From assembly GCA_034522055.1 (NCBI GenBank), contig JAXHLS010000002.1, positions 682,001 through 746,000 on the forward strand: 64,000 nucleotides of DNA. Direction: 5' to 3'. Source of the DNA: Gammaproteobacteria bacterium (GTDB taxonomy: Bacteria > Pseudomonadota > Gammaproteobacteria > JAABTG01). Below, in pieces: positions 34,570 to 64,000 of the stretch. How positions within the stretch are numbered: position 1 is the first letter of the stretch; the number at the start of each line of letters is the position of its first letter. Both the position numbers and the translations under genes were made by a program. Below the pieces are notes generated by a model that ran no database searches, had not been told where the DNA came from, and worked only from the letters and a program-made list of their open reading frames with translations.

Positions 34570-35028
34570 TCAGGCCTGGCCGGCCCCTCCCCGTCCACAG
34601 CGAAAGGAGACCAGGGCGAGGCCGCGGGAAAGCAGCCAGTCCGCCAGCTTGCCGATGACCAGGAACAGCAGGATGGCCAGGAACCAGCCAAGGAAGTAGG
34701 CGGGTCGGAAGGCCAAGGTGGCAGGCGGTGACGGCCCGTCCGCACCGAGTTGGGAAGGCCCGGCGTTGCGGGAAATATCCATGGTGGGCAGGCCGGCGGC
34801 CCGCTCGATGGTGACCACCATGGCCTCGATGCGGCCGGGGTCACGATAGAGCCCCACGGCCTCGAACAGCACCGTCACCAGGGCCCACAGGCCGCACACC
34901 AATAACAGCAAACCCAGGATGCGCACCGTCACCGTCAAGGCCAGGGACGTCCTGGAACAGACCAACTCGCCGGGTTCCCGCGGCTCCGACTCCTGCACTG
35001 ACGACTCTCCGTTTGAGATGAGCCCCAT
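34570..35028 (-). CDS. two-helix membrane protein, unknown
   Basis: 152 residues starting MGLISNGESSVQESEPREPG. Two strong hydrophobic helices (VRILGLLLLVCGLWALVTVL and AYFLGWFLAILLFLVIGKLA) are joined by ~60 residues that should face the periplasm if the N-terminus is inside. No family was recognised. The upstream frame extension is GC-rich noise. It lies on the same strand as prkA but ~245 bases away from it. Confidence 0.55.
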   Translation of the reverse strand: MGLISNGESSVQESEPREPGELVCSRTSLALTVTVRILGLLLLVCGLWALVTVLFEAVGLYRDPGRIEAMVVTIERAAGLPTMDISRNAGPSQLGADGPSPPATLAFRPAYFLGWFLAILLFLVIGKLADWLLSRGLALVSFRCGRGGAGQA

Positions 35029-35204
35029 GACCGGGCCCCAGGGGCGGGCGGTCGACTGGCGAGCCGATACCGTGGGCTCGGCCTGAGCATATAAGCCATG
35101 GCGGTGGCGATCCACTCCCGAGCGCTGCGGCTTTTGCCTCCCGCCGGCCCGTGCCAGCGGCCCCTTGCGGGCCCGCCCCCGGAACGCGCAGCTTGCCCGA
35201 CGCC

Positions 35205-35417
35205 TCAGTGAAATGCCGGAACGTGGGTGAGCAGGAAGCGGTGCAGCTTCCGGCACGTCACGTCGAACTCCTTTTGCGCGGATTCGCTGGTCTGCGGCCA
35301 CACCAGCGGTCCGCCTTCGCCATCGACGAAAGCCGCCAGCAGTGCCGCCACCGTTTGCTTCTTCAACTCGGGATCTTCGTCCCTTCGCCGGATCAGCTCG
35401 CCGCCCAGCAAGGTCAA
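35205..35417 (-). CDS. hypothetical 70-residue protein
   Basis: A possible TTG-started frame reads GGELIRRRDEDPELKKQTVA, LLAAFVDGEGGPLVWPQ and RKLHRFLLTHVPAFH. The composition looks protein-like, unlike the shadow frames around it, but no family was recognised and no clear ribosome site is seen. It lies 17 bases downstream of the SRAP remnant, so it could be a passenger of the same lost operon. Confidence 0.3.
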   Translation of the reverse strand: MTLLGGELIRRRDEDPELKKQTVAALLAAFVDGEGGPLVWPQTSESAQKEFDVTCRKLHRFLLTHVPAFH

Positions 35418-35433
35418 GCCTCGGGGACGACCC

Positions 35434-35697
35434 TCACGGCCCCCCCGCCTCGCCGGCTGCCCCGGCCGGCTCCATCTGCTCAGGCACGTCGCCGAGGTTG
35501 CGGGCCACGGGGTAGGCCTCGAGCCACGCGTCGGGGCACGGCCCGACGAGTTCCCGGACCTCTTCCACCTCACCGAACAGCCAAGTTTCCCCAGCCTTGG
35601 TGATGCGGACATCGAAGCTTTGTCGCCACCAGGACGGGACATGGGAGACGTAGGCCTCCATGGCCCTGCGGTCAGGGGTGATGTAGCGGGTGCACAT
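35434..35697 (-). pseudogene. SRAP (HMCES/YedK-type) gene with central deletion
   Basis: 87 residues. The N-terminus MCTRYITPDRRAMEAYVSHV and C-terminus WLFGEVEEVRELVGPCPDAW align with the intact SRAP protein at 55,049-55,738 of this window. About 145 central residues (34-178 of the intact protein) are missing, including the conserved YEW and the active-site His. The catalytic Cys2 remains, but the DNA-crosslinking pocket cannot form. The frame is still open, so the deletion was in frame. Confidence 0.8.
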
Positions 35698-35964
35698 GGT
35701 TTATGACGACCTCCAAAAGGGGACGGAGTCCAAAAGGGGACGGAGGGATTAAAGATTAATCCCTCCGTCCCCTTTTTACGCAAGATCTCTGTGACCCAAG
35801 ATCTCTGACCCCAGATCTCTGCTGTGAGGATTTCCCCGCCAGACGGCGTGCGGGTCGTTCGCAGCCGAACAATTGCGCGCTAGACTCCGGCCTCATCGGG
35901 TAACCATCGACCAACTGATGGGCCGATTCGGGTCAATCTTCCTTTCCCTTCCTCCAGACAACAG

Positions 35965-36780
35965 GTGCGATTCAAGGTGAACAGCTCTGCGATTCAGGCG
36001 TCCTTCGAGCGGGTGCGCAGTAACAAGGCCTTCGAGCTTTTCGTCGTCTCGGTGATCATTGCCTCGGCGCTGCTGGTCGGCGTAAAGACCTATGAACTCC
36101 CACCGACCAGTCAGTTGTTGCTCGGCTGGCTGGATGTACTGGTCACGGTCATCTTTCTCGCCGAGATCGGCATCCGTTTCATTGCCGAGCCCAACAAGCG
36201 CAGGTTCTTTTACAACGCCTGGAACCTGTTCGACACGCTGGTCGTGCTGGTCAGCCTGATCCCGATCGAAAACAGCGATATGGCTCTGGTCGCGCGCCTG
36301 GTGCGGGTATTCCGGGTATTGAGGATGGTATCCATCGTGCCGGAACTGCGCATGCTGCTCACCTCGCTGCTGAAAGCACTGCCCCAGCTGGGCTACGTGA
36401 TCCTGCTGATGTTCATCATCTTCTACATCTATGGCGCGATCGGCGCCACGCTGTTCGAGTCGATCAATCCGACCCTCTGGGGTGACATCGCGATCTCGAT
36501 GCTCACGCTGTTTCGCGTGATGACCTTCGAGGACTGGACCGACGTGATGTACGAGACCATGACGGTACACCCCTGGAGCTGGTTCTACTATCTGAGCTTC
36601 ATCTTCTTCACCGCGTTCGCGTTCCTCAACATGGTCATCGGCATCGTCGTCAACGTGATGAACGCGGAGAACGAAAAGCTGCTCAAGATGAAGGCGGAGG
36701 AACAGCACGAACCCACCCTTCGGGACATCCAGGCGCAACTCGAACGACTGCAACAACAGCTGGAGCGGAACGACCGCTGA
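35965..36780 (+). CDS. single-domain voltage-gated cation channel (BacNav/CavAb-like)
   Basis: 271 residues, six membrane segments. S4 carries four Arg at every third position (R111, R114, R117, R120 in RLVRVFRVLRMV), the voltage sensor. The pore loop reads TLFRVMTFEDWTD (filter residues 187-193) between S5 (YVILLMFIIFYIYGAIGATL) and S6 (FFTAFAFLNMVIGIVVNVMN). A C-terminal coiled coil (EEQHEPTLRDIQAQLERLQ) should hold the tetramer together. The filter differs from the usual TLESW. The frame starts with GTG; a second GTG 12 bases later is equally possible. Single gene. Confidence 0.9.
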   Translation: MRFKVNSSAIQASFERVRSNKAFELFVVSVIIASALLVGVKTYELPPTSQLLLGWLDVLVTVIFLAEIGIRFIAEPNKRRFFYNAWNLFDTLVVLVSLIPIENSDMALVARLVRVFRVLRMVSIVPELRMLLTSLLKALPQLGYVILLMFIIFYIYGAIGATLFESINPTLWGDIAISMLTLFRVMTFEDWTDVMYETMTVHPWSWFYYLSFIFFTAFAFLNMVIGIVVNVMNAENEKLLKMKAEEQHEPTLRDIQAQLERLQQQLERNDR

Positions 36781-37016
36781 ACCTCGGGATCAGGTGTTGC
36801 GTTTTGCCATCCCGGGAAAAGGGGACGGAGGGATTAATATCTAATCCCTCCGTCCCCTTTTCCCCCGTCCCCTTTCTTGGTCCCCTTTCTTTTACGAAGG
36901 CACCGTATCCAGATCGTGTCTAGTTGAAATGCCTTTCTCTCCCGATTCGCGCCGATCTCAAGTCGTTCTCTCACTTGTTCTATTCAAATTGCACACCAAC
37001 TCGCGGCAGGACGCGG

Positions 37017-37045
37017 TTGCCCGGCGGTGTCCCGCCCCATATACT
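37017..37045 (+). promoter_or_regulatory. promoter of the MazF system
   Basis: TTGCCC (37,017-37,022), 17 bases, TATACT (37,040-37,045), about 27 bases before the antitoxin ATG. The following GTACTACGGGTGTAC is an imperfect palindrome that could be the autoregulatory operator. Confidence 0.5.
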
Positions 37046-37072
37046 GCAGACCGTACTACGGGTGTACATACG

Positions 37073-37306
37073 ATGAAGACGATCACTGTCCGGGCCGACC
37101 GGGAGTTCGATGCGCTGCTCACGCGGCTCGCGCGGCGCATGAAGACCACGCGCAGCGGGGTAATCCGCGATGCGGTACGCCGTTACCAGCACGAGCTGGA
37201 GCGCGAGGCGCTGCGACGGCAGTTGCGCGATGCTTCCCTGAAGACGCGCGCCCAGGTCAAACAGGCCGACGACGATTTCGACGCAGCCAGCGCTGACGGG
37301 CTGTAA
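37073..37306 (+). CDS. ribbon-helix-helix antitoxin
   Basis: 77 residues. KTITVRADREFDALLTRLAR and RMKTTRSGVIRDAVRRYQHE form the beta strand and two helices of a CopG/MetJ-type DNA-binding domain. The charged C-terminus would wrap the toxin. It stops five bases before the MazF start. ATG 37,073 fits the RHH start; longer frames add unrelated sequence. Confidence 0.88.
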   Translation: MKTITVRADREFDALLTRLARRMKTTRSGVIRDAVRRYQHELEREALRRQLRDASLKTRAQVKQADDDFDAASADGL

Positions 37307-37311
37307 CGAGA

Positions 37312-37659
37312 ATGCCGGTCAAGCGCGGCGCGATCTATCTGGCCAATTTCAATCCCTCAAAAGGCACCGAACCCGGCAAGATCCGCCCTTGCCTTGTCAT
37401 GCAGAGCGATCTGCTGAACGAAGCCGGACATCCCAGCACGACGGTACTGCCCCTGACGACGCAGTTACTCGACGCCGCCGCGCCACTGCGCTACCGCCTG
37501 AATGCGCGTGATGCCCTCGATGCCGATTCGGACATCATGCTGGATCAGACGAGAACCATCGACAACCGTCGTTTCATGGACGAGATTCTGACGGTCCTGA
37601 CCGAACATGAACTGGCCGAGGTGGAAACCTACTGGTGTATTGTGATGGGGCTCGATTGA
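37312..37659 (+). CDS. mazF: MazF/PemK-type endoribonuclease toxin
   Basis: 115 residues. KRGAIYLANFNPSKGTEPGKIRPCLVMQSD is the MazF/PemK start (KRGAIYLANF, RPCLVMQSD). TTVLPLTTQL and IMLDQTRTIDNRRFM carry the strand and loop of the RNase site. It cuts mRNA at short sequences when free of antitoxin. It forms an operon with the RHH antitoxin upstream. Confidence 0.92.
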   Translation: MPVKRGAIYLANFNPSKGTEPGKIRPCLVMQSDLLNEAGHPSTTVLPLTTQLLDAAAPLRYRLNARDALDADSDIMLDQTRTIDNRRFMDEILTVLTEHELAEVETYWCIVMGLD

Positions 37660-38059
37660 GCCAGAAGCAAAGCATCAAGCGGGTGATTGGCACGCCCCGC
37701 TCTGCTGCGCACGCTTTCGTGGATCGTCACCCCCCAACGATTGCATATCAGAACCCTTCATCAAAATTGGCGACTGCCCAATCGCCACGACTGAGCTCTA
37801 ACCTCTCCTCTGTCGAGGTAGTGCGGGGACGCACGGCATGGGCGCGCCGGGCCGGAGGAAAAGAGAAAAGGGGGACGGAGGGATTAATATTTAATCCCTC
37901 CGTCCCCGTAACTATTCAGGGGTACTTCACCATCGCACCTGACAGAACCAAGCTATGACCCTATTCTCCGAACCAAGAACCGCCCACGTCAACTCTTGAC
38001 AGCGTAGGAAGCTCCACCTATGCTGCGGTCCATCCTCTACTTGAGAATGAGCCGCGGTC
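37660..38059. other. intergenic with palindrome, no gene recognised
   Basis: 400 bases between mazF and the methylase. It contains the third GGGGACGGAGGG palindrome (37,871-37,907). Frames present are short and without recognisable composition. Confidence 0.5.
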
Positions 38060-38734
38060 ATGGGCAGCTACTTTGGTTCCAAAGCGACTTCAGGTCTGTG
38101 CCAGCCGATCATTGCCCTGATGCCGCCCCACGACACCTACATCGAGACCCATCTTGGGGGTGGCGCGATCATGCAGCGCAAGCCGCCGACGTTGCGCAAT
38201 ATTGCCATCGATCGCGATCCCGCTGCACTGGCCCGCTTTGAGTGTGACTATCCGGTCGAGAAGGTGTGTGGCTGCGCCCATCAGTTTCTCGGCGCCTTCG
38301 ACTTTCAGGGCCGGGAACTGCTCTACTGCGATCCGCCGTATCTGCACCACACCCGCAGTTCTAAACGTCGTTACCGTTTCGAGTACGAGGAGCAAGATCA
38401 TGTTGAGCTGCTGGAACTGCTCAAGTCACTGCCCTGTTCGGTGATCCTCTCCGGCTACCCATCGGCGCTCTACGACGATCTGCTGGGGCAGTGGCGTAGC
38501 CTGGAGTTGCAGGTGATGAACCAGGCCGGGGTCAGAACCGAGAAGCTGTGGTTCAATTTCACCCCGGATCGAGTGCACTGGCCCGCCTATGCGGGGCGCA
38601 ATTTCACCCACCGCCAGAACGTCAAACGCAAGGCGCAGAGTTGGGGGCGGCGCTATCAGGCCATGCCCCCTGCTGAACGCCTGGCGGTACTGTCCTCGAT
38701 CATGGCCGTGGAAGCGGGCGAGACGTTCGAGTAA
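38060..38734 (+). CDS. D12-class N6-adenine DNA methyltransferase
   Basis: 224 residues. GSYFGSKATSG and THLGGGAIMQRK resemble the SAM-binding FxGGK/motif I region, and LLYCDPPYLHHTR is the catalytic DPPY motif. The order and the end YAGRNFTHRQNVKRKAQSWG fit phage- and island-borne Dam-like enzymes, shorter than chromosomal Dam (~270). No restriction gene is adjacent, so it is an orphan methylase or a remnant of a mobile element. It ends nine bases before the IS66 fragment. Confidence 0.82.
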   Translation: MGSYFGSKATSGLCQPIIALMPPHDTYIETHLGGGAIMQRKPPTLRNIAIDRDPAALARFECDYPVEKVCGCAHQFLGAFDFQGRELLYCDPPYLHHTRSSKRRYRFEYEEQDHVELLELLKSLPCSVILSGYPSALYDDLLGQWRSLELQVMNQAGVRTEKLWFNFTPDRVHWPAYAGRNFTHRQNVKRKAQSWGRRYQAMPPAERLAVLSSIMAVEAGETFE

Positions 38735-38742
38735 CCCGGCCA

Positions 38743-39700
38743 ATGACGATCGACAACATCCCGGTCGAGAAGACCCTCGCGGCGGTCAAACGCCAGCTCG
38801 AGGAGGAGAAGAACCTCTCGCCGGCGCTACGGGCATCGTTGGAGTTGTTGCTGACCCTGACCACGGTGTTGTTGAACCGGCTGGGACTCAATAGCGGCAA
38901 CAGCTCCAAGCCCCCGTCCAGCGACCCCAACCGCAAGAAAAAGCGCAACAACGGCAACAACTCCCCCGGCGGCCAAAAGGGCCATAGCGGCAATCACCTG
39001 GAACTGGTCGATGATCCGGACCATGTCGAGTCGCTCAAGGTCGATCGGGCCACGCTTCCCACCGCTGGGACCTTCCGCTGTATCGGTTATGAACGCCGCC
39101 AGGTATTCGATATCCAGATCTCCCGAGTGGTCACGGAATATCAGGCCGAGATTCTGGAAGATGAACGGGGACGGCGCGTGGTCGCCCCCTTCCCGGAGCA
39201 TGTGAAGGTCAAGACCCAGTATGCCTCCGGGGGTCAAGATCCAGTCGGTCTACATGTCCAGCTTCCAACTCCTCCCCTACAAGCGGATCGAGGAGCATTT
39301 TGCCGATCAGTTCGGGATACCGCTCAGTGCCGGCAGCATCTACAACTTCAACAAGGAGGTGTACGAGAGGCTGGCCCCGTTCGAGGATTGGGTGAAAACA
39401 GCGCTGCCAAAGGCCCCGTTGCTCCATGCCGACGAGACCGGCATCAACATCGGTGGAAAACGGAAATGGCTGCATGTGGTATGCAGCACCACCGCGACAC
39501 TGCTGATTGGCTGCAGCACGGGTGGCAGTGACCACCTCGGTCCGCGCCACCACCGCGCCAACCCTGCCTCCGTCGACGACTACGCGCTCACCAGACCGGA
39601 GAAAACAAACGGCCGGCCGAAGCGGGCCCTATACCTGCTCAATGCCGATGCGACAGCCCCTTATGCTTCCGCTTCTTTTTCACGCTCCGACAACAATTGA
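38743..39700 (+). pseudogene. IS66-family transposase fragment (TnpC-like), frameshifted
   Basis: The first frame (from ATG 38,743) shows the leucine-rich helix, NSGNSSKPPSSDPNRKKK and GGQKGHSGNHLELVDDPD of IS66 transposases. At the run GGGGG near 39,231 an extra G moves the frame. The next frame continues VKIQSVYMSSFQLLPYKRIE and PLLHADETGINIGGKRKWLH, which holds the first catalytic Asp. Similarity stops near 39,500, so the DDE core is incomplete. The remaining frame to 39,700 is unrelated sequence. Confidence 0.82.
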
Positions 39701-39972
39701 TTCAAGATTTGCTTCTTTTCACATTCGGCAAAGCGGGTCAGGACCTGGCGCATGAGAGGCTGGTACCCGATTCCGTGGTACTTGGCAATCATCTTGAATT
39801 CGTCGATCAGGGTTTTTTGTAGACGAATGGACACTGGCTGCAAACCCAGTGAATCATTGATTTGCTCCTCAATGCTATCTGTTGCCACAGCCACATGCTC
39901 TTCGTCGCGACCTAGCTCTCCTGACTCCCAGGGATCGTCTTGCACCAATTTCGCGACATTCTTGCTAGTCAT
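39661..39972 (-). CDS. BrnA-like/CopG-type antitoxin
   Basis: 103 residues from ATG 39,972. The C-terminal half QPVSIRLQKTLIDEFKMIAK, then GIGYQPLMRQVLTRFAE, is the ribbon-helix-helix pattern of the BrnA/CopG antitoxin group; the N-terminal acidic part would bind the toxin. It follows the toxin gene by 31 bases in the same direction, the toxin-first order known for BrnTA. Confidence 0.8.
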   Translation of the reverse strand: MTSKNVAKLVQDDPWESGELGRDEEHVAVATDSIEEQINDSLGLQPVSIRLQKTLIDEFKMIAKYHGIGYQPLMRQVLTRFAECEKKQILNQLLSEREKEAEA

Positions 39973-40003
39973 TTCGGTTAACCTTTCTTGGTTGGCTTGC
40001 TGG

Positions 40004-40297
40004 CTAATTGGGTTGGCCGTGCTTCTTGAAAATCCGGATCTCATCCGAGTTCGGATCGTAGGCCGTTCGAATAATGATGGCGCCGTTCTTCGGGATAAAC
40101 ACCACTTTGAGTTTCCTACCAAAATCAGTTTCCGCGACGAACCATCGCGTTGGTGGGTCAGACGCATGTTCCTCTCGTGTGTCGATCAGGTAGACGCCAG
40201 TACGGTTGGCGAAACATTGAACTATCTCTTCCTCCGTGACTGGCCGCTTCTTCTTGGCGAGTTTTTCCTTTACTCGAGACAAAATCTCGAGTCTCAT
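40004..40297 (-). CDS. BrnT-like small toxin
   Basis: 97 residues. WFVAETDFGRKLKVVFIPKN and AIIIRTAYDPNSDEIRIFKK give the small alpha/beta fold of RelE/BrnT-like toxins; database names such as 'ADP-ribosyl-(dinitrogen reductase) hydrolase' are attached to close relatives without biochemical support. It probably acts as an RNase-type toxin together with the downstream antitoxin. A palindromic operator candidate lies upstream at 40,332-40,350. Confidence 0.75.
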   Translation of the reverse strand: MRLEILSRVKEKLAKKKRPVTEEEIVQCFANRTGVYLIDTREEHASDPPTRWFVAETDFGRKLKVVFIPKNGAIIIRTAYDPNSDEIRIFKKHGQPN

Positions 40298-40331
40298 GTT
40301 TCTGACAGTCCCTTAGTAAGAAGCGGCTGTG

Positions 40332-40350
40332 TGTATACAGCGTATATACA
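40332..40350. promoter_or_regulatory. operator-like palindrome of the BrnT-like system
   Basis: TGTATACAGCGTATATACA, an imperfect inverted repeat ~35 bases upstream of the toxin start. This is the usual place for antitoxin autorepression. Confidence 0.45.
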
Positions 40351-40520
40351 AAGGACCACTTAAATCAAGTAAAATTCCATTGCAGAGGTCTGAAGCATGC
40401 GGAGCACCGCATTTCTTGCCAGTAGCTTTGTTTCAAAACCGAGCCAAGCCCACAATGGTAGCCCGCTTGGTAGCCCGTTCAGGGCATTCTTATTTATTTT
40501 CTCGTAACTTATTGATTTTA

Positions 40521-40565
40521 TGGAGCCGAGTAACGGATTCGAACCGTTGACCTACTGATTACAAA
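40521..40565 (-). other. tRNA-Thr(TGT) 3' fragment, probable att site
   Basis: Read on the minus strand these 45 bases are the 3' part of a tRNA-Thr, from the anticodon loop (TTTGTAA) through GGTTCGAATCC to ACTCGGCTCCA. The 5' half is absent, so this is not a functional tRNA. Such fragments are left by integrases that use tRNA 3' ends. By its orientation the island lies at higher coordinates, towards the integrase gene. Confidence 0.85.
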
Positions 40566-40697
40566 TAATTAGCCGAGGCCTTTCTTTGGGTAACACCCCC
40601 TAACACGATTCCAGAAGTACGCCTTTATTTCTCAACCTGTTACGCCATTTTTGCCTAACTAACTACATCGGCGTATAACAACAAAAAACAGCCCGTT

Positions 40698-40773
40698 TTG
40701 TTACCCACTTGTTACCCACTTGGGGCGACTGATTATGAAAAAACGGCTCACCGACAAGACTGTTACCCACTTG
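40698..40773 (+). repeat. three TTGTTACCCACTTG direct repeats at the integrase start
   Basis: Copies at 40,698-40,711, 40,709-40,722 and 40,760-40,773 (first base C). The first two overlap by three bases and lie just before the integrase ATG; the third is inside the gene. They could be arm-type binding sites of the integrase. Related CTGTTACCCATGTTGTTACC occurs at 63,981-64,000. Confidence 0.6.
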
Positions 40774-41982
40774 GCGCCGCCCTCCGCGGGGCGCGTTGAC
40801 GTGTTCGACACTCTGCTTCCAGGGTTCGGCGTGCGGGTGAATACCAAGGGGCGAAAGACCTTCTTCGTGTTCTACCGGGTGAACGGCAGACAGTCCCGGC
40901 TCCTCCTGGGGGATTATTCCGAGACGGAAGGCCGGGGCGTGAAGCTTGCCGAGGCGCGCGCGGCGGCCCGCGCGGCCATGACCAAGGTTGCCGAGGGCGA
41001 CGATCCGCGGCAGAGCCCTTCGGAGACCATCCCCGACGGCGCGCGGGAGAGCTTCGATGACGTGGTGGCCGACTATGTGACCTACCACTGCAAAGTGAAG
41101 TTGAAGCCCCGCACGGCCGCCAGCTACGAGCGCGAGTTGAATCGCGTCAAGGCGAAGCTGGGCAGCAAGCCGATTACAAAACTGACTCGGCGCCACGTGT
41201 TGGATATCATCGAGGACCACCTAAGGAGCGGGCACCCCGCGCAGGCCGCATTGACTCACCGCATCCTGGCCGCGTTCTTTAACTGGACGGTTCAGCGCGG
41301 CATCCTGCCCGCCTCTCCTATTGCGGGGCTCAAGCTGCCGGCCAAGATCCCTTCCCGGGACCGGGTACTGACAGACGGTGAGCTGGCCGCCATCTGGGAG
41401 GCCGCCGGAGAACTGGGCTATCCCTTCGGCCCGTTCGTGCGCCTCCTGGCCGCCACAGGGCAGCGGGAGGGTGAGACCGCGCACATGCGCCACGAGGACC
41501 TGGACGGCGCCTTGTGGAGTATCCCCGACCCGAAGAACAGTACCCCCCACATGGTGACGCTACCGGCCATGGCCCGCGCGGAACTGGACGCCCTGCCCGG
41601 CTTCAAGGGACCGTTTGTATTCAGCGGGCGCGCCGGCAAGACGCCGGTTAGCGGGTTCAGCAGGGCGAAGCGTGTCCTGGACGAGCGCCTGAAGGAGATG
41701 CACCAGAGCGATGCCGCCAGGTGGCCCGAGGTAGCGCCGTGGCGCTTCCATGACTTGCGCCGCACGGTTGCAAGCCGCTTGGCCGAGATGGGCACCCCAC
41801 CCCACATCATCGAGGCCCTGTTGAACCACCGTAGCGGCCAGGTGTCCGGCGTCGCCCGCGTCTACAACCGTTACCGCTATGTGAAGGAGATCGCCGAGGC
41901 CCTGTGCCAGTGGAACGCGCAACTGGAGCGCATCACCGGCGCGCCTGAGCCGGCCGAGGTTGTGGAGCTTCGCCATGGTTGA
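40735..41982 (+). CDS. int: P4-type tyrosine integrase
   Basis: 415 residues. The N-terminal DUF4102-like domain (KKRLTDKTVTHL, LPGFGVRVNTKGRKTFFVFY) and SAM-like core-binding domain precede the catalytic domain. Catalytic Arg is in ATGQREGETAHMRHEDL, the His-x-x-Arg in WRFHDLRRTVASRL, the second His in LLNHRSGQVSG, and the Tyr in VYNRY. It should recombine at a tRNA 3' end; the tRNA-Thr fragment is 170 bases upstream. ATG 40,735 was preferred to TTG 40,720. Confidence 0.95.
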   Translation: MKKRLTDKTVTHLAPPSAGRVDVFDTLLPGFGVRVNTKGRKTFFVFYRVNGRQSRLLLGDYSETEGRGVKLAEARAAARAAMTKVAEGDDPRQSPSETIPDGARESFDDVVADYVTYHCKVKLKPRTAASYERELNRVKAKLGSKPITKLTRRHVLDIIEDHLRSGHPAQAALTHRILAAFFNWTVQRGILPASPIAGLKLPAKIPSRDRVLTDGELAAIWEAAGELGYPFGPFVRLLAATGQREGETAHMRHEDLDGALWSIPDPKNSTPHMVTLPAMARAELDALPGFKGPFVFSGRAGKTPVSGFSRAKRVLDERLKEMHQSDAARWPEVAPWRFHDLRRTVASRLAEMGTPPHIIEALLNHRSGQVSGVARVYNRYRYVKEIAEALCQWNAQLERITGAPEPAEVVELRHG

Positions 41983-42561: not shown

Positions 42562-42951
42562 ATGAGCCAGACCATCCGCCGCGCCGCGCGCCGCCATCGC
42601 TTCGTCATCGTCGATCAGGCCGCGGTGGAGGACACCCGTCTCTCCTGGGCCGCGCGCGGCCTGCTCGCCTACCTGCTGTCGCGGCCGGACGACTGGAAGG
42701 TATTAGTCAACGATCTTAAAAAGCGCGGCAATCTTGGTCGGGACGGTATCTATGCGCTGCTGCGTGAGCTGCGGGAAGCAGGTTACGTGGCCTTCGATCG
42801 CAATCGCGACAACCAAGGCCGCATGCGGGGCGGCACCTACATCGTCTCCGAAATACCGCATACGGCTTCGCCGGATCTGGACACGCCGCTTCCGGCTGCA
42901 CCGCGTCCGGTGAGGGCGGGCGCATTACCTGAGAGCGGTCACCCGATTTGA
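42562..42951 (+). pseudogene. helix-turn-helix island protein, N-terminal half (split by transposon)
   Basis: 129 residues. RRHRFVIVDQAAVEDTRLSW, ARGLLAYLLSRPDDWKVLV and RDGIYALLRELREAGYV are the winged-helix of replication-initiator-like proteins found in islands and plasmids. The last codons and the stop (42,949-42,951) come from the left end of the transposon. The C-terminal half is found beyond the element at 46,285-46,623. Confidence 0.8.
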
Positions 42952-43029
42952 TGGACTGATTTTCACGATTGGTGATGGTTCCATCGACAGTGGTGAGGGC
43001 GGCGTTGCCGCCGCGGTCACACGCACAGA

Positions 43030-43218
43030 TCAGGACGAGGGGTCGAAGGGCAGGGTCAGTTGGTTATCGTGGGGGCGCTGGTCGTGGTACCAGCGGTGTA
43101 TTTGTATGAAGTAGTGGTTTTGGAAGGCGGTATAGAAGTCTTCGAGGAACTCATTGAGTGCAACGACGGCTTCGTCGGGCAGTTCGGGGAAGGCGAAGCG
43201 ATCGGCATCGTCGTGCAT
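43030..43218 (-). CDS. small transposon-encoded protein
   Basis: 62 residues (MHDDADRFAFPELPDEAVVA, then RWYHDQRPHDNQLTLPFDPS). It starts one base after the ATPase gene's stop, so it is read in the same transcript. The composition is protein-like. Homologues travel with ExeA-type ATPase/transposase pairs; function is unknown. Confidence 0.65.
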   Translation of the reverse strand: MHDDADRFAFPELPDEAVVALNEFLEDFYTAFQNHYFIQIHRWYHDQRPHDNQLTLPFDPSS

Positions 43219-43219
43219 G

Positions 43220-44068
43220 TCAGCGGACTCCAGCGGCGCTGCGTCGAGGCGGTTGCGTTGCGGGTGCAGCGAAGACCTGCAGATAGAGTTTTTCGTCGAG
43301 CACGGTGATGTCGCGCTGCGCGGCGGCCATGAGCAGTTCGGCGGCCATACTGATGAAGATGCGGTAGTTGCCTGCGGCGTGATCGGCGAGCGTGTGACGC
43401 AGTTCCTGGGTCATGAGGCCGGCGTTGCCGGCGGTGGTGAGCAGGTGTTCGAGGCAGGCGAGGAGCTCTTCACGGGTTGCGACGCCGGTGGCGAGGCGTG
43501 TGCGAATGCGCGAGCCCAAGGGGATGAGTTCCTCGCGGCGCAGCTTGTCGAGCAGGCGAGCATCGCCAGAGAGCACCACGCACAGGAGCGATTGGGAATC
43601 GAAGCGTGCGCTGGCCAGCAGGCGCAGCTCACTCAAGACCATGGGGGTCATTTCCTGGGCTTCGTCGATGAGGATGACGGGGCGTCGATTGGCGGAGCCG
43701 AGATGGTCGAGCCAGCGGGCGCGCAGCGCCTTGAAGCCACCCCAGCGGTTGCTCATGCGCATGGCGATCCCGAAGATGTCACCGAGCTCGCGGTAGAAGT
43801 CGCTCAAGTTGCTTTGCGGATGGTGGATGACGCCGACCGACAAGTCCGTCAGGCGTGAGAGGCGCTCGGCAAGCAGTCGCATGACGACGCTTTTGCCGGA
43901 GCCGGGATCACCATGGACAAGCGCGAAGCCGCCCTCGCGCAGGTGCGCCTGCTCGATACGCCAGCAGAAGTTCTCGATCTGGGGCGGCACATAGAGCGCT
44001 TCGGTCGGCACGTCGGGGGTAAAGGGGTTCCATTTGAGGCCATAGAGCGCCAGGAGTTTCTGGTTCAT
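43220..44068 (-). CDS. ExeA/TnsC-like AAA ATPase of the transposon
   Basis: 282 residues. Walker A GDPGSGKSVVMRLLAERLSR (about residues 53-60 for the P-loop), Walker B PVILIDEAQEM, sensor region CVVLSGDARL and an arginine RTRLATGV. The start LYGLKWNPFTPDVPTEALYV is the ExeA-like signature. In Tn7/Mu/IS21 systems such ATPases select the target and activate the transposase. It follows the transposase gene by six bases. Confidence 0.88.
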   Translation of the reverse strand: MNQKLLALYGLKWNPFTPDVPTEALYVPPQIENFCWRIEQAHLREGGFALVHGDPGSGKSVVMRLLAERLSRLTDLSVGVIHHPQSNLSDFYRELGDIFGIAMRMSNRWGGFKALRARWLDHLGSANRRPVILIDEAQEMTPMVLSELRLLASARFDSQSLLCVVLSGDARLLDKLRREELIPLGSRIRTRLATGVATREELLACLEHLLTTAGNAGLMTQELRHTLADHAAGNYRIFISMAAELLMAAAQRDITVLDEKLYLQVFAAPATQPPRRSAAGVR

Positions 44069-44074
44069 GCGGGG

Positions 44075-45516
44075 TCAATCCTTCTCGTTGGTGGGTAAAT
44101 AGGCCGGCGGCAGGCCGGTGGCGGCGTAGTCGGCGATCATTTGTTTCATCAGCGGTGCGATGCCGGTGTTGGTCGCGGCGCTCGGCGCTGGGTGGGTCGG
44201 CTCGACGCGCCGGCGCAGGGCGTCGGCGTTGGCCGTTTTATCGAGCGGGCGCACCGGGCAGAGGATGGTGCCCGTGCGCGCATCGACCAGGTCGACGCGG
44301 CTCAAGTCCCAGCGGGCATAGCGCAGGTGCACCTCGCTCAGATGACGATAGCGCGACGGCAGCTCGAAGCGCTGGCCGTCGAGACTGACGGTGCCGTCAG
44401 AGCGGCGTTGCTTGCGCTTGACCTCGAGGCGGAAGGCGGCGCGCAAGTCGTCGCTACCGGGCACTCGCGCGCGACGTTGGGGCCGGCGAGTAAGCGATCG
44501 AGCGGTGTCTCGCCGAGCTCGCTGTGCACGGTGCAATGATATTCCCGGGTAATCCAGGCTTGGGTCGCCACGTTGAGCTGCTCGAGTGTGAGGTTCGGTT
44601 CGCCCTCGAGCATGGCGAGCAGGCGCCCTTCGACGCGGCCCCAGAGGTTCTCCTGCTTACCATTCACATGCGGCGAATACGGCAACGTTGGCAGGTGCAC
44701 AATACCCAGGTGATGAAGCCCCGCGGTGAACTCGGCCGAGATCATCGCCGCGCCGCGGTCGGTCATCAGCGAGCGCGGCAACCCGACCTTTTGCAAGGCC
44801 TGGCACAGGCCGTGGACCAGCTCCTCGGTGCGCTCGTTCGTGTACCACTGGGCATGGCACAAGAACCGTGAGCGATCGTCGATGAAGCCGACCAGCAGCG
44901 GTTTGACGTACTCGCCACGGCGGGTCAGGACCTTGCGCGAGCCGTGATGGAAGTCCAGATGCATGAGCTGCAGCACATGCGCGACTTCGTAGCTGCGCAC
45001 TTCGCGCTGTTCGAGCCAGTCGCGGGCGGCCATCGCCCCGTCAGTGGCGCGCTTGGGCGTTCGTTGGCGCACGAGTCCCTGGGCTTTCAGATAGCGCCGC
45101 ACGCTCGGATACGAGGGCGACTTCGCGTCGGCGAGGGTCACGCGTAAGTTGTCATGGTGTAACTGGGCGGTCCAGCCCGGGTGTTCGCGGTACTGGGTCG
45201 TCAGCGCCTGCACGGCCTCGGCTGACAGGCTCGGAAAGCGGCCGATGTCGCGCCGCACCTGATTGCGCAGCGCCCGCACTGGATCGGCGGCATGCCTGGC
45301 GGCGTAGAACCAACGCTCGAGCGTCGAGGCGGCGAACCGCATCTCCAGCCCCGTGAACGGATGACGCCAGGTCTTCGCAGCCAAGTCCTTCAGCGCGGCG
45401 CGCAACTGGCCCGGGGCCGGCGGCGCGGCGAGCAGCGGTCCGATGATCGCAAAGCGCAGTCGCGCCCAACGATCGCGTTGCGGTAGATCGTCCTCGTTGC
45501 TCATGCTCGCTCCCAT
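44075..45516 (-). pseudogene. DDE (rve) transposase with Mu-type C-terminus, frameshifted
   Basis: About 480 residues in two frames. The catalytic triad is visible: Asp in LQLMHLDFHHGS, Asp in SLMTDRGAAM and Glu in HVNGKQENLWG. Near 44,468 the CG-repeat CGCGCGAG causes a slip. The second frame continues PGSDDLRAAFRLEVKRKQRR and VSLDGQRFELPSRYRHL, the Mu-transposase C-terminal beta barrel, ending PAYLPTNEKD. Without the slip the protein would be complete, so decay is recent or the base count is an assembly error. Confidence 0.85.
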
Positions 45517-45603
45517 CGTGGCCTTGTTGATGGGAACGCAGGCTACAAAGTGCCTGATCGGCAGTCTATCGACATCCTCTGCGGGTAGCGGGCAACCCGC
45601 GAA

Positions 45604-46155
45604 TTACCTGACCATGGCACGGGTGCTCAGGGGCGCAATGAAGCGCAGCGCTTGCACCAGACGATCGCTCAGCGCGCTCGCCTCGAAGCGTTGCAACAGG
45701 CTCTGCGGCAACTGGTGAATCGCCACCGGTGGCATGAAGTGCTGGCAGGTCGATCGCCAGAACGGTGTCGCGGGAAAAGTGGTGCACCACCACGCCCGCC
45801 AGCGCTTCAGCGTGACCGCCGCGATGCGCAACCGAGCGCACACGGTTCGAGCCGAAGCGCTGCCCGGCGGCGAGAGCAACATAAACACCACCGCCAGATA
45901 CACACGACGGCCCGCAAACCGCACCGACGGCGGCGTCGTGCGGTGATCACAGCGACCGCAGGTGAAGCTCAAACGCCGGGAATAAGCCTCCTGTAGCGCC
46001 GCCGGACAGCCACGTGGTTTACGCGGATAGTCCGCCACATGCAGTGGCCCCCCGCACGCCCGGCAACCCTGCAGCCGCGTCGTCGCGGCGAGTTCTTGGT
46101 CGATGGAGATAAGGAGATGAAAAAAAGCGGGATCTTGCAGTAGGACGTGGCACAC
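45604..46155 (-). CDS. zinc-ribbon helix-turn-helix protein of the transposon
   Basis: 183 residues. CRACGGPLHVADYPRKPRG with a second pair FTCGRCDHRTTPPSVRFAG makes a four-Cys zinc ribbon; the His/Arg pattern RTVCARLRIAAVTLKRWRAW looks like a helix-turn-helix. It is the first gene of the element, just inside the right end. A role as end- or target-binding accessory, by analogy with TniQ, is inference. Confidence 0.65.
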   Translation of the reverse strand: MCHVLLQDPAFFHLLISIDQELAATTRLQGCRACGGPLHVADYPRKPRGCPAALQEAYSRRLSFTCGRCDHRTTPPSVRFAGRRVYLAVVFMLLSPPGSASARTVCARLRIAAVTLKRWRAWWCTTFPATPFWRSTCQHFMPPVAIHQLPQSLLQRFEASALSDRLVQALRFIAPLSTRAMVR

Positions 46156-46284
46156 TTACAGGGTCTCCTGGCTTGGTAACCGGAGACTCCCCGGAGGGGA
46201 TCTTCTAGTCAAGATCCCCGATGGGGATCCCCCTCAAACCATCACCAAACTAGACCTCAGAAAGCGAAATCACCATCAAAATAG

Positions 46285-46623
46285 GTGGCGCTACTCACAT
46301 TACCCAAGACTGATGGAAAAAAAAGAACAACTACTACAACAAGACCGACAGACACCTACCCCATGGCAGACGCCAAGCGGGAAGCACACCAACTGCGATT
46401 CCCGGAGTGGGTACCGGACGAGATGCGCGCGCCAGCCACGCGACTCGTCGCCAGCCTCGACCGTCCCGACGCCCAGCTCGTCATAGACGAATGGGCTGGC
46501 GCGCTGGCCATCGGCGCGATCCAGCGCTCGCCACTCGGCTACCTCAAGACGCTGGCGGTACGCTGCCAAGCAGGCGACATGAGCCTGCGATATGCAGGCG
46601 TCATGTCGTCGCAGTTGTTGTAG
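46285..46623 (+). pseudogene. helix-turn-helix island protein, C-terminal half
   Basis: Starting directly after the transposon's right end, the frame reads LRFPEWVPDEMRAPATRLVA, then QLVIDEWAGALAIGAIQRSP and LGYLKTLAVRCQAGD, the usual C-terminal part of the initiator-like protein whose N-terminal half is at 42,562-42,951. The transposon separates the two parts. The last residues (VMSSQLL) may be altered. Confidence 0.7.
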
Positions 46624-54191: not shown

Positions 54192-54224
54192 GTGTAAGGT
54201 TTTCCGACACGTTCGCTTTTAGAA
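54192..54224 (-). promoter_or_regulatory. upstream activator element A (PEP-CTERM genes)
   Basis: On the minus strand it reads TTCTAAAAGCGAAC then TGTCGGAAAACCTTACA. It lies ~139 bases upstream of the sigma-54 promoter, a normal distance for an enhancer-binding protein. Element B at 55,767 is nearly identical and sits in the same relative place before the second PEP-CTERM gene. Confidence 0.65.
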
Positions 54225-54327
54225 AAAGCGCGCATGTTCAGGAACACCGTTCCCTACAGAGAGGGCTTCAGCATTTGCTTATTCAACGATAATCTTGATG
54301 AGTGCATCCCAACAGGAGGACGCATTC

Positions 54328-54942
54328 ATGCAGACCCCATCAACCCCTTGGAACAAAGGCCGCTCCGTCGGCCCGAAGGCCCCCCTAAAGCACTACCAGA
54401 TCTGGCGCATTCGCCGACGTCTCGAACGCGACTTCGCCAGACGTGATCTCGCTCTGTTCTCCTTGGCACTGGACTCCATGCTGCGGGCCTCCGACCTGCT
54501 CGCACTCAGGGTGGGAGACGTGATGGATGAAGCATGGCACGTGAGGACGGCGCTCGTCATTCGGCAGCGTAAGACGGGGTACATCGCCCAGGTAGAACTG
54601 GCCCCCTACACGCGGGCGGCCCTGGAGACCTGGGTGGCCTTCAGCGCGAAGTCTGCCTCGGACTTCCTGTTCACGAGGAGGAACGACGACCACGGGCCGC
54701 CTATCAGCGCCGCGCAGTACCGGAAGCGGGTCAAGGCTTGGGTCGCATCCATCGGCCTGAACCCCGATGCATACAGTACCCATAGCCTCCGGCGGACACT
54801 TGCGGCCCGGGTGTACCACGAGACCAAGAACATCGAGGTGGTTCGGAACTTGCTCGGCCAGAGCTCAGTCTCGTCAACGTCGCACTACCTGAATATCGGC
54901 GGGACCGAATCACTCGCGGTCGCAAGACGTTACCGCATCTGA
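54328..54942 (+). CDS. short tyrosine recombinase (catalytic domain only)
   Basis: 204 residues, with AGGAGG (54,314-54,319) well spaced from ATG 54,328. The catalytic Arg is in LDSMLRASDLLALRVGDV, the His-x-x-Arg in STHSLRRTLAARVYHETKN, and the Tyr in STSHYLNIGG. The N-terminal arm- and core-binding domains of normal integrases are absent. Proteins of this short class are chromosomal or element-borne with unknown recombination sites. It lies between two divergent PEP-CTERM genes, 107 bases before the SRAP gene. Confidence 0.87.
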   Translation: MQTPSTPWNKGRSVGPKAPLKHYQIWRIRRRLERDFARRDLALFSLALDSMLRASDLLALRVGDVMDEAWHVRTALVIRQRKTGYIAQVELAPYTRAALETWVAFSAKSASDFLFTRRNDDHGPPISAAQYRKRVKAWVASIGLNPDAYSTHSLRRTLAARVYHETKNIEVVRNLLGQSSVSSTSHYLNIGGTESLAVARRYRI

Positions 54943-55048
54943 AGCGGGCGCTGCTTCCAGGGGCAGCAACTCTTGCCCGTCGCCGCAGAGGCGCCGTGCG
55001 CCCCGTTTGCCCGTGCGGATGCTCACGCCCCAATGCTACGCTCTGTGC

Positions 55049-55738
55049 ATGTGCACCCGCTACATCACCCCGGACCAGCGCGCCATCGAGGGCTACGTGG
55101 GCCACGTACCCCCGTGGTGGCAACAGAGCTACGACGTCCGCATCACCAACCTGGTGCCGGTGGTGCGGGCCGCTGCGGATGGTGAGCGTGCTCTGGAGCA
55201 GATGTACTGGACTCTCCTCCCGCCCAAGTCCGACAAGAAGACCTGGCGCATGCCGACATGGAATCTCCGCGGGGAGCGCCTCGAGGAGAGCCGCATGTAC
55301 GGGTCCCCCTTCAAGTCGAGGCGCTGCGTGCTACCGGCGGCCGGCTTCTACGAGTGGCCCGAGGTCAACGGCGAGAAGCAGCGGCACTGCATCCGCCCGG
55401 CAGACGGTGGCATGTTCCTCTTCGCCGGCCTCTGGAACCCCTGGACATCGAAGGACAGGACGGAGGAAGGCGCCACGGTGGGCATCATCACCACGGAGGC
55501 CAACGCGTTCATGAGGCCGCTCCACAACACCGGCAAGAACCCCTACCGCATGCCGGTCATCCTCGACCCGCAGCTGGCGGACACCTGGATGTTCGGGGAT
55601 GTCGACGAGGCCCGTGATCTCGTCGGGCCGTGTCCGGACGATTGGCTGCAGGCCTACCCCGTCCCGCGCAACCTGGGCAACGTGCCTGCACAGATGGAGC
55701 CCGCTGGAGACCTCATTCGCTCGGGTCAAGGGGCTTAG
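55049..55738 (+). CDS. SRAP domain protein (HMCES/YedK type)
   Basis: 229 residues beginning MCTRYITPDQRAIEGYVGHV; Cys2, exposed after Met removal, forms the thiazolidine crosslink to abasic sites in single-stranded DNA. WNLRGERLEES and CVLPAAGFYEWPE are the Asn and Glu motifs, ITTEANAFMRPLHNTGKNPY-RMPVIL the His motif. It protects abasic sites at forks and belongs to the SOS neighbourhood in many bacteria. A deleted paralogue is at 35,434-35,697. ATG 55,049 is required because Cys must be residue 2. Confidence 0.93.
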   Translation: MCTRYITPDQRAIEGYVGHVPPWWQQSYDVRITNLVPVVRAAADGERALEQMYWTLLPPKSDKKTWRMPTWNLRGERLEESRMYGSPFKSRRCVLPAAGFYEWPEVNGEKQRHCIRPADGGMFLFAGLWNPWTSKDRTEEGATVGIITTEANAFMRPLHNTGKNPYRMPVILDPQLADTWMFGDVDEARDLVGPCPDDWLQAYPVPRNLGNVPAQMEPAGDLIRSGQGA

Positions 55739-55766
55739 GAGGCCACTTCCCAGATTGGCGCGCTAC

Positions 55767-55799
55767 TTCTAAAAGCGAACCTGTCGGAATTTTTTACAC
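55767..55799 (+). promoter_or_regulatory. upstream activator element B (PEP-CTERM genes)
   Basis: TTCTAAAAGCGAAC then TGTCGGAATTTTTTACA, the plus-strand counterpart of element A. The inner part is an imperfect inverted repeat (TGT...ACA). It lies 130 bases upstream of the sigma-54 promoter at 55,929. Confidence 0.7.
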
Positions 55800-57227: not shown

Positions 57228-57533
57228 TGAGTTTTGGGCTGCGAGGACCGGGATTCCTTAGAAATTGCGCTTTTTCTATTAGCGATCCCTCTCGGACTGC
57301 CCGCGGGCAGCCAGTCGTCCACCTTGCTCTGGATGCGGTTGCGAGTAGAATTTGACCTAGGGCCACCAATGATGGTGAAGGCCATGGAGACCCCGTGTTA
57401 GCGGCTGAGTAAATCCGCGCATAAATGGCGAAGGTCGCAGTCGCGGGTTCAGGCGGCGTGACTCGGCCTCAGCGCGGATAGGTCGCCTCGACTCAAGCCA
57501 GGTCACGCCGCCGGGGTGGGCTTAAGAGTCGGC
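57228..57533. other. intergenic stretch left of the IS21 element
   Basis: About 300 bases with no protein-like frame. The left end of the IS21 element should be here; TGTTAGCGGCTGAGTAAATC near 57,397 is a candidate because IS21 ends begin TG, but no matching inverse was found to the right of 60,483. Confidence 0.35.
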
Positions 57534-57710
57534 TCAGAAGATCAAGTCATCGTCGTCGACTTCAAAGGTCGTTATGCGGTCTTGTTGCATGAGTTCGACC
57601 AGCTGCCGATCGTATCGGCTCCAGATGGCATCGCGGAGTTCGTCGATAAAGTCATAGATCGCCAATGCCTGCTCTGGTGTCCAGTCGTCCGGTATCGGGG
57701 GATGGGTCAT
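57534..57710 (-). CDS. small IS21-associated protein
   Basis: 58 residues ([40 protein letters not shown], acidic end FEVDDDDLIF). It overlaps the istB stop by four bases (57,707-57,710). Similar short acidic proteins follow istB in other IS21 elements; the role is unknown. Confidence 0.7.
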   Translation of the reverse strand: MTHPPIPDDWTPEQALAIYDFIDELRDAIWSRYDRQLVELMQQDRITTFEVDDDDLIF

Positions 57711-58480
57711 GGTTGGGCTCCTTTGTTGGATTTGGCTGCGGATTGGCGCCGCTGCGCCTGTTGCTGCTGTCGCTCCTTGGCCTCCTTGAGCCGGTAGGAT
57801 TCACCTTCGATAGTGAGGATCTCGGAGCGGTGTACCAGCCGGTCCACGAGGGAGACCACGCAGGAGGCGTTGGGAAAGACTTCACCCCATTCGGCGAAGG
57901 GTCGGTTGGTGGTGACCAGGGTGGATTTCTCCTCGTAGCGGCGGGAGACGATCTCGAACAGCAGATCGGCATGGCGATTGGAGTAGGCGAGATACCCCAC
58001 CTCGTCGACCGCTAGCAGTTGAGGGCGGGCGTAGCGGGCGAGGCGCCGCTTGAGGGCGCTGTCGCCATCCTGGGCGGCCAAGTCATTGAGCATCTGGCCG
58101 GCGCTGGTAAAGAGGACGCTGTGGCCGGCCAGCACCGCTTGATGGGCGATGTTGCGGGCCAGGGTGGATTTGCCGACCCCGTTGGGTCCCACCAGGATGA
58201 TATTGACCGCCTCGGTAAGGAAGTCGAGGCGCATCAGCTCACTGACCAGTTCCCGGTCGCAACGGCTGGGCCAGCCCCAGTCGAAGTCGGCCAGGGGTTT
58301 GAAGCGGCCCAGCCGCGCCCCTTTCATGCGCCGCTCGAGGCTGCGGTCGGCACGTTCTTCCTCTTCCCACTGGATCAGGGACTCGACCCAGCCAGCGTCG
58401 GCGTGCTCCTCCCAATGGCTCAGCAGGCCATGGAGCTTGAGGGCCGTGGCCCGTTCTTTCAGGGATGGGTTAGGGATCAT
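57707..58480 (-). CDS. istB: IS21 helper ATPase IstB
   Basis: 257 residues. [20 protein letters not shown] is Walker A (residues ~99-106), [20 protein letters not shown] Walker B, and [20 protein letters not shown] the sensor region with the conserved TTN. IstB, a DnaC/DnaA-like AAA+ protein, wraps DNA and delivers the target to IstA. Start overlaps the istA stop (ATGA). Confidence 0.95.
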
Positions 58481-60006: not shown

Positions 60007-60165
60007 CTCGTGGCCGGCCGGCTCAAGGGGGCTGAGCCCGGGCGCCTGGTGGCCCCTGTCGGGTGACTGTTCCAAGCGCAGCAGCGGCGGTGGCGCGATG
60101 AAGCGGGCCGGTACGCAGGAAAGGTCCGCACTCACGGCCGCAGAAGTGGCAGCGAATGGGCGCCA

Positions 60166-60483
60166 TCATCGGCGCGCCATCCGCACCGCGGCGGCCAGCC
60201 GGCCTCGCCGGAACGGGGGGTAGTGGATCATGAGGGGCGGGGCCGGGGAACCCTGATGCGTCACTTTCTGCCTTCTCGCCCGGTAGCGGCGTTGCCGCTC
60301 GGCATGCTTGTGCCGGCCCTGGCGGCTCTGCTGGTAGCGCCAGCCGGCGGCCCGCAGAGACGCGCTTCGTGCCACCTGCGCACACCCCTCAGGGCAATAG
60401 ATGTTGCCGCGGTCACAGCCGCTGCAGATCATCACTTGACGGTGACAACGGGCGCAGTTGTACAGGCGTGCAGAGTTCTCCAT
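60166..60483 (-). CDS. zinc-finger protein upstream of istA
   Basis: 105 residues. YNCARCHRQVMICSGCDRGN and IYCPEGCAQ make a Cys-rich zinc site, followed by RHKHAERQRRYRARRQKVTH QGS, a basic stretch. I have seen this pattern beside IS21 elements of gammaproteobacteria, so it is likely a passenger or accessory. A second CHFCGRECG-type motif on another frame near 60,115-60,155 hints that the original protein was longer and the end is frameshifted. Confidence 0.6.
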   Translation of the reverse strand: MENSARLYNCARCHRQVMICSGCDRGNIYCPEGCAQVARSASLRAAGWRYQQSRQGRHKHAERQRRYRARRQKVTHQGSPAPPLMIHYPPFRRGRLAAAVRMARR

Positions 60484-63738: not shown

Positions 63739-64000
63739 GTGCTGGCGTCCGTGCTGGCTGTCGGCGGGCGAGGTTACTCCAAGCTGGGACGCTCGGACAA
63801 TTCGCGGCCGCGAGGGACCAGCAAAGAGATCGCTCGCCCTTACCCCCTGCTCGTATCTCCCGAGCCCGGCCCGTGCCGAGCCTTATTGGGGGTGGAGCGC
63901 CGCGAGTTCACTCTATTCGGGACACAGTGACGAGACCTGCGGTTACGCCACTCGCCACGGCACCCCCCTATTTCCGGCTTCTGTTACCCATGTTGTTACC
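63739..64000. other. right edge, TTACCC repeats
   Basis: No recognisable gene. The last 20 bases (CTGTTACCCATGTTGTTACC) contain two copies of the TGTTACC motif seen at the integrase start near 40,700, so another P4-type integrase leader or att region may begin here. Confidence 0.4.

Follow-up and report, generated by a model that had tools for sequence, protein, structure and literature searches.

A tRNA-Thr(TGT) island with a P4/DUF4102-type integrase and putative arm-type repeats at both ends

The stretch analyzed here, called the window, comprises 64,000 nucleotides (C2:682001-746000) of a gammaproteobacterial genome of 5.14 Mb in 7 contigs that is 98% complete. Positions 40521-64095, which extend 95 bp past the right edge of the window, very probably form one island in tRNA-Thr(TGT), with a P4/DUF4102-type integrase and the core and arm sites proposed below. 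This is a known, ordinary kind of mobile island. With both ends fixed, one element is seen beside what look like the remains of an older one.

Results

On the minus strand, 40521-40566 is the displaced 3' half of tRNA-Thr(TGT), 46 bases from the CCA to just beyond the anticodon loop, and is taken as the attL core from its match to the intact gene. ARAGORN called no tRNA there; its sole call in the window was a tRNA-Gln at 11086. An earlier note on this DNA had read the fragment as an island boundary and had asked for the sequence to be extended to the right. The extension bore this out: the intact tRNA-Thr(TGT) lies 50 bp beyond the right edge, at C2:746050-746125 (64050-64125 in extended coordinates), together with related repeats. 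The 46-base fragment has one other match in the genome at up to 3 mismatches, C2:746050-746095 within this intact gene, with 1 mismatch. The flanking direct repeats are identical at 45 of 46 bases, and their starts are 23,529 bp apart. Joining the flanks in silico gave an intact 76-nt tRNA-Thr(TGT), and joining the island ends gave no tRNA.

Identity to the intact tRNA stops just past the anticodon loop, both in this pair and in three other fragment/intact pairs in the genome. Site-specific recombination would have inserted the island into tRNA-Thr(TGT), with the P4/DUF4102-type tyrosine integrase recognizing the anticodon stem-loop as its core site and strand exchange taking place inside the 7-nt loop. 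We infer a 7-bp overlap, TTACAAA, at 40559-40565 (unstranded), just beyond which the identity ends. The island-borne 3' half would complete the tRNA on the right, leaving the old 3' half at 40521. As in the islands defined in the excerpted Islander text (PMC4383910), an intact tRNA and a displaced 3' fragment in the same orientation lie 2-200 kb apart, with a tyrosine integrase gene inside (PF00589, 44 bits; cut-off, 27.1). The site belongs to the anticodon-loop ("A") att class of Table 1 in that source, with identity ending just past the loop and the crossover placed by repeat extent rather than by cleavage points. According to the same excerpt, the crossover is anticodon centered in 2083 of 3919 tRNA islands, and tandems of at least three number only 4.

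A second genome of the same genus (G001) aligned with window positions 64050-68274 at 84 to 88% identity in two pieces, and the similarity ended at the 3' end of tRNA-Thr(TGT). No island sequence was present in the 3.5 kb of that contig beyond the tRNA, where a putative dicarboxylate symporter gene (by reading, with no family search) follows; its homologue in the present genome is at C2:3222674. To the right of tRNA-Thr(TGT) are SPOR, type III pantothenate kinase, and biotin ligase genes. The earlier note had suspected either a far att region or a second integrase just past the edge; the former was found, with its intact tRNA and repeats, and the latter was not, the next PF00589 match on the contig in a whole-genome search (E <= 0.001) being at C2:1474372.

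The repeat TTGTTACCCACTTG is exact at 40698 and 40709, in 11-bp phase, and recurs at 40760 with one mismatch. The two overlapping copies (40698-40722, plus strand) end 12 bp before the integrase ATG at 40735, and the third, CTGTTACCCACTTG (40760-40773, plus strand), lies within the integrase reading frame. Three repeats had been noted earlier at the integrase start; all three are present, the third inside the gene and not upstream of it. A motif search added an inverted GTTACCCA at 40587-40594 (minus strand). The same motif had also been noticed in the last 20 bases of the window, correctly so: these bases, CTGTTACCCATGTTGTTACC, contain one full GTTACCCA and the beginning of another, whose remaining bases follow outside the window (...GTTACCCACTT). 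These putative tRNA-side arm sites (GTTACCCA...GTTACC) occupy 63983-64000 on the plus strand, with the second unit ending outside the window at 64001-64002.

Exact GTTACCCA occurs 5 times in the window against 0.86 expected, and 0 of 100 shuffles reached 5. In the window plus locus L005 (83.5 kb), there are six sites, 40587 (minus), 40700, 40711, 40762, 63983, and 63995; all six are at the two ends of the element, with none internal. The phased-repetition score on the integrase side of the window was 14, a value as high as which was found in 0 of 3000 random 260-bp windows. The repeats are probably arm-type sites, four on the integrase side, of which three are direct and one is inverted, and two on the tRNA side, that would be bound by the N-terminal domain of the integrase and bridge the ends; what bears on such binding here is the co-variation of domain and repeat described below. 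Because the repeats abut the integrase start codon, bound integrase would probably also repress its own gene, as in KplE1 intS. A search for a sigma-70-like promoter at the integrase start found none, so the case for autorepression is one of position and analogy.

The integrase (40735-41982, plus strand) has 415 aa and contains Arm-DNA-bind_3, core-binding, and Phage_integrase domains according to Pfam. PF13356, the Arm-DNA-bind_3 family, is presumably the same domain as DUF4102. It was matched at 54.9 bits (cut-off, 27), which fits the P4/DUF4102 integrases (IntSXT subgroup) as outlined in the excerpt of PMC8138268. The protein also matched phrog_1 (integrase). A phmmer search against solved sequences gave 5 matches at E <= 0.001, all named Integrase, which we take to be lambda integrase.

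Two insertions of 3.37 kb each interrupt the island. One is an IS-like insertion (42930-46298, minus strand; rve transposase and AAA ATPase) with a 99.97% copy at C2:3430084-3433453, and the other is an IS21-family element (57395-60765, minus strand; IstB, 57707-58480; IstA, 58477-59994) recognized by Pfam and genome repeats. A small tyrosine recombinase of 203 aa with no arm-binding domain match (54331-54942, plus strand; Pfam and PF00589 search) stands next to an SRAP gene (55049-55738). Further Pfam matches among the 25 ORFs of the element were LigB-type dioxygenase, DoxX, nitroreductase, LysR, FlhC-like, WYL, DUF433, DUF6946, a PEP-CTERM protein, and a weak HTH_36. PADLOC, applied to 10 proteins, gave weak matches only, to a WYL protein and an AAA ATPase. 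Among the same 25 ORFs, Pfam recognized no excisionase gene and no conjugation genes (relaxase, T4SS), and thus the island may no longer move.

Several further observations concern the cargo. At 54196-55795, the recombinase and SRAP genes lie between stretches that by eye are similar and inverted, TTCCGACAcGTTCGCTTTTAGAA; the block recurs, interrupted, at C2:3549856-3553089 and is perhaps a small mobile cassette. Near the tRNA-side end, 0.4 kb (63294-63703) recurs beside a Thr(CGT) fragment (C2:3619150-3619558, 77%), and 0.1 kb of it recurs near the intact tRNA-Thr(CGT) (C2:3389962-3390085, 78%). Is this a tail common to several elements? The genome (G000) has 68 PF00589 matches, of which some represent parts of a single gene and many lie in recurring clusters of at least three (e.g., C2:18021-20418, 2152288-2155983, 2682550-2686884, 3562445-3564842, and 3571966-3574372) that look like recombinase-in-trio elements.

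Whether one composite island or two adjacent ones fill this stretch had been left undecided in the earlier note. The matching repeats, the restored 76-nt tRNA, the confinement of GTTACCCA to the ends, and the lack of a second integrase on the right make 40521-64095 one element, which carries IS insertions and a single small recombinase gene in its interior; the end of an older element lies immediately left of 40521 and not on the right. It is very unlikely that two islands adjoin here, one with the integrase at 40735 and the other with the recombinase at 54331: the latter is indeed a second PF00589 protein whose block with SRAP recurs elsewhere in the genome, but it has no arm-binding domain match, there is neither an internal Thr(TGT) 3' half at up to 3 mismatches nor an internal GTTACCCA, and the right side has no integrase match before C2:1474372. 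Even less credit is given to the repeats being operator sites for a regulator of the integrase gene rather than arm sites. Their overlap with the 5' end of that gene would suit an operator, but the same motif pair stands beside the tRNA at the other end, 23 kb off, and such pairing of the ends recurs in other elements.

To the left of the fragment, 34947-40520 (unstranded) looks like an integrase-less remnant of an element, E1, that entered the same tRNA earlier. Homology to a contig of the same-genus genome (C72 of G001) stops at 34946, after SpoVR/DUF444/PrkA genes, and Pfam matches in E1, whose extent is estimated, include a PemK/MazF-like toxin, an ion channel, and other pieces. No match to tyrosine recombinases (PF00589) was found in C2:662001-722520. 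A tandem 11-bp-phased repeat, GGTAGCCCGCTTGGTAGCCCG (40457-40477, plus strand), is taken as the tRNA-side arm sites of E1, and between it and the tRNA 3' end lies an IHF-like site, AATCAATAAGTTA (40505-40517, minus strand). The IHF consensus is WATCAANNNNTTR. E1-type end layouts were also found at C2:3619071 and beside tRNA-Lys(TTT). The repeat pair at the E1 end, GGTAGCCCG, is unlike that of the island. The island would have entered after E1, which would have used different arm repeats and lost its integrase end.

In this genome, an IHF-like site (at most 1 mismatch, within 32 bp of the end, either strand) was found in 13 of 47 tRNA 3' flanks versus 0 of 47 5' flanks, and 10 of the 13 start 2 to 4 bp from the tRNA on the same strand. 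The flank of the intact tRNA-Thr(TGT) has only a 2-mismatch IHF-like site. Phased repeats 30 to 100 bp out reached score 8 in eight 3' flanks versus no 5' flank and reached score 7 in 12 versus 2. The IHF site and the phased repeat co-occurred (9/13 versus 5/34; Fisher p 0.0006), at thresholds of one mismatch and a repeat score of 6.5 that were picked after seeing examples. In the lambda P' arm, the order is core, IHF site, and tandem arm sites, which the order in these 3' flanks resembles.

Among 95 genomes, five further integrases of the group were found at E <= 1e-60, three of them in this genome (55-56%), one in G003 (53%), and one in G089 (44%, with an internal stop). At E <= 1e-70, 3 of 369 class genomes, this one included, had a match, with up to 4 candidates scored per genome, so that weaker relatives may be missed. 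Scans of viral_contigs and genome_contigs, which reach close relatives only, found none. Four of the five lie at the displaced-fragment end, next to a tRNA 3' half truncated at the anticodon loop, namely, Lys(CTT) at L032, Lys(TTT) at L034, Asn(GTT) at L029, and Lys at L030, the last two judged from the fragment alone. No tRNA fragment lies beside the integrase at L033 (C2:3477461-3478895); by eye, the junction there (...TTGACGAATTACTG) is compatible with a Thr(CGT) loop remnant after core deletion.

The intact partner tRNA of each element in this genome was expected to carry the repeats of that element. By eye, Lys(TTT) is flanked by GGTAGCCAGTTTGGTAGCCAGTT and Lys(CTT) by GTAGATAATCTGGTAGATT, the latter type being seen again at Thr(CGT). 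An island at Pro(CGG) has GCTTACCC repeats at both ends, and its integrase, L082, is distant (29% in the N-domain, 22% in the rest). In a cognate test, the integrase-side DNA of 8 loci was compared with the 3' flanks of 47 intact tRNAs; L014, L115, and L120, of other types, were left out, and two foreign loci are without a partner in the 47-tRNA set. The element's own tRNA came first alone for the window, L034 (Lys(TTT)), and L082 (Pro(CGG)); for L032 and L033, Lys(CTT) and Thr(CGT) tied for first, the L033 partner being presumed. In total, the own tRNA was best for 5 of 5 own-genome elements (three alone and two tied, one with a presumed tRNA). Scores of at least 19 occurred in 13 of 200 random windows and scores of at least 16 in 45 of 200; since such scores are common in random windows, only the ranks count as evidence.

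The integrase sides of L032 and L034 each had a phased-repeat score of 7, which 35% of random 260-bp windows reach. Four of 10 listed plasmid and phage relatives, all distant, were examined. In Skermanella, the integrase start is preceded by a phased repeat with a score of 12, above background; a phage clone (9) and Microvirga (8.5) are within background, as scores of 8 to 9 are, and Ruegeria has no phased repeat. In Microvirga, a tRNA-Lys-like fragment separates the repeat from the integrase, and GCTTCCCATACGCTTCCCAGC was seen by eye on the integrase side.

Other integrase types were also met. L115 (C2:2779587) and L014 (C2:3617324) belong to another type, paralogous by eye, that has used both tRNA-Lys(CTT) and tRNA-Thr(CGT). 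Past the anticodon loop, the element sequence is the same in both; here too the target has switched, and the loops differ. tRNA-Pro(GGG)-like 3' fragments lie at C2:16615, 3390037, and 3619510, and the intact tRNA-Pro(GGG) at C2:29727 has a strong phased repeat, GCTTTACAGCG, twice. At L120, the integrase side showed by eye no copy of the repeat that lies beside the intact tRNA-Pro(GGG).

The integrase, repeats, and attL of the island recur at C2:3578039-3576401, with 97% identity over 1639 bp. This second copy adjoins a tRNA-Thr(CGT) 3' half; the intact tRNA-Thr(CGT) gene lies at C2:3389791. At the junction, Thr(CGT) sequence runs through GACCTACTGATTAC and is followed by AAATAATTAGCC as in the window element. 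With a 7-nt loop overlap, element TTACAAA would meet target TTACGAA, the two differing only at position 5 on this strand, and the copy apparently integrated despite this mismatch. A mismatch in the overlap is typically strongly deleterious and is tolerated by some integrases, according to the excerpt of PMC10865867. For the far end of the copy, no other GTTACCCA pair was found in C2:3380001-3660000 (280 kb). The region is a pile-up, with a further Thr(CGT) fragment at C2:3618962 beside another integrase. In the cognate test, the integrase-side DNA of the copy best matched the flank of Thr(TGT), where the window element itself ends, and not that of its present neighbor.

A less likely but serious origin of the copy, instead of integration at a mismatched site, is that elements at both tRNA-Thr genes underwent homologous exchange with each other. 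The two genes share 14 bp at the core (GACCTACTGATTAC), and the region holds many rearranged repeats; against exchange, the switch from Thr(CGT) to element sequence falls within the 14-bp core, as expected for an integrase, and the copy differs from that of the window at about 3% of bases over the 1639 bp. Given this divergence, it is not a recent duplicate.

Two observations bear on Thr(CGT) sequences elsewhere. A second tRNA-Thr(CGT)-like gene, scored at 34.2 bits and degenerate, lies at C2:2731774-2731850. In contig C97 of G001 (L048, 472-5142), a Thr(CGT) 3' fragment and an intact gene bracket 4.6 kb with a putative subtilase-like ORF and no obvious integrase (by reading, with no family search).

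The window integrase is 58% identical to that of G003, which shares GTTACCCA, over residues 1-100 and 50% over the rest. For L032, L033, and L034, which have GGTAGA or GGTAGCC repeats, identity is 37-39% over residues 1-100 and 59-62% over residues 101-415; for G089 (GTTACCCA), it is 44% and 42%. By bootstrap, the identity differences of G003 versus L032 and of G003 versus L034 are distinct from zero in each of the two parts and run in opposite directions between them. Trees were built from 10 of 12 integrases after two near-duplicates were dropped. The window, L032, and L034 grouped in 96 of 100 replicates with the rest of the protein and in 20 of 100 with the N-domain, in which L032 and L034 grouped in 98 of 100 on a long branch, the window with G003 in 4, and the window with G003 and G089 in 20. 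These N-domain groupings do not establish a clean N-domain swap. Within this set of sequences, the N-domain tracks repeat type and the rest of the protein does not. From the contrast in identities and trees, repeat type and N-domain thus appear to have changed together, by exchange or fast divergence.

Discussion

Parts of this arrangement have precedents in published systems, which are compared here from excerpted texts. The integrative plasmid pHS87b, at a tRNA-Thr of Pseudomonas aeruginosa, is a close one (PMC4739549): a P4-like integrase lies beside a 45-bp copy of the tRNA-Thr 3' end, direct repeats arise after integration, and its authors infer that another strain has a second element stacked on that tRNA. 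Compared by description only, the present island differs in having its integrase at the displaced-fragment end, IS insertions, and recognizable arm repeats at both ends. For arm sites over the integrase start and for autorepression, a known case is KplE1 (PMC2951348), where attL overlaps the intS promoter region and the arm sites are next to the gene start. In KplE1, however, the arm motif contains TAAA, the target is argW, and autorepression was measured, whereas here it is predicted.

Similarly, IntS of ICEMlSymR7A has five arm motifs (TGKTGGTATC) in its attP region that end up in attL and attR (PMC11963761, in excerpt), but its arm sequence and element differ, and ICEMlSymR7A is conjugative. 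The tRNA-Thr(CGT) copy recalls SGI1, which is reported to use a secondary site that differs by a single substitution, at position 5 of its proposed 7-bp overlap, and also to form tandem arrays; SGI1, unlike the element here, targets thdF and not a tRNA, and this was shown experimentally (PMC2297512, in excerpt). A search of literature titles and abstract starts, with most subscription papers outside its coverage, found no paper on the exchange of arm specificity among island integrases, and the apparent co-change of repeat and N-domain may not have been described before.

The related copies in this genome suggest how islands piled on one tRNA may keep apart. Arm repeats and arm-binding domain might change jointly as an address label, so that stacked elements would share a core and differ in label, each integrase would pair only its own ends, and neighbors would not be excised. 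We hold this reading tentatively, at somewhat short of even chances. The labels would be GTTACCCA, GGTAGCC, GGTAGA, and GCTTACCC, with the rest of the integrase and the anticodon-loop core constant. The presence of several labeled elements in one genome makes it directly testable.

The tRNA-Thr(CGT) copy suggests that the integrase can move between isoacceptor genes despite an anticodon mismatch. The related integrases of this one genome, with their differing arm repeats and tRNA targets, form a natural set in which the evolution of arm specificity could be traced, along with the means by which stacked islands escape cross-excision.
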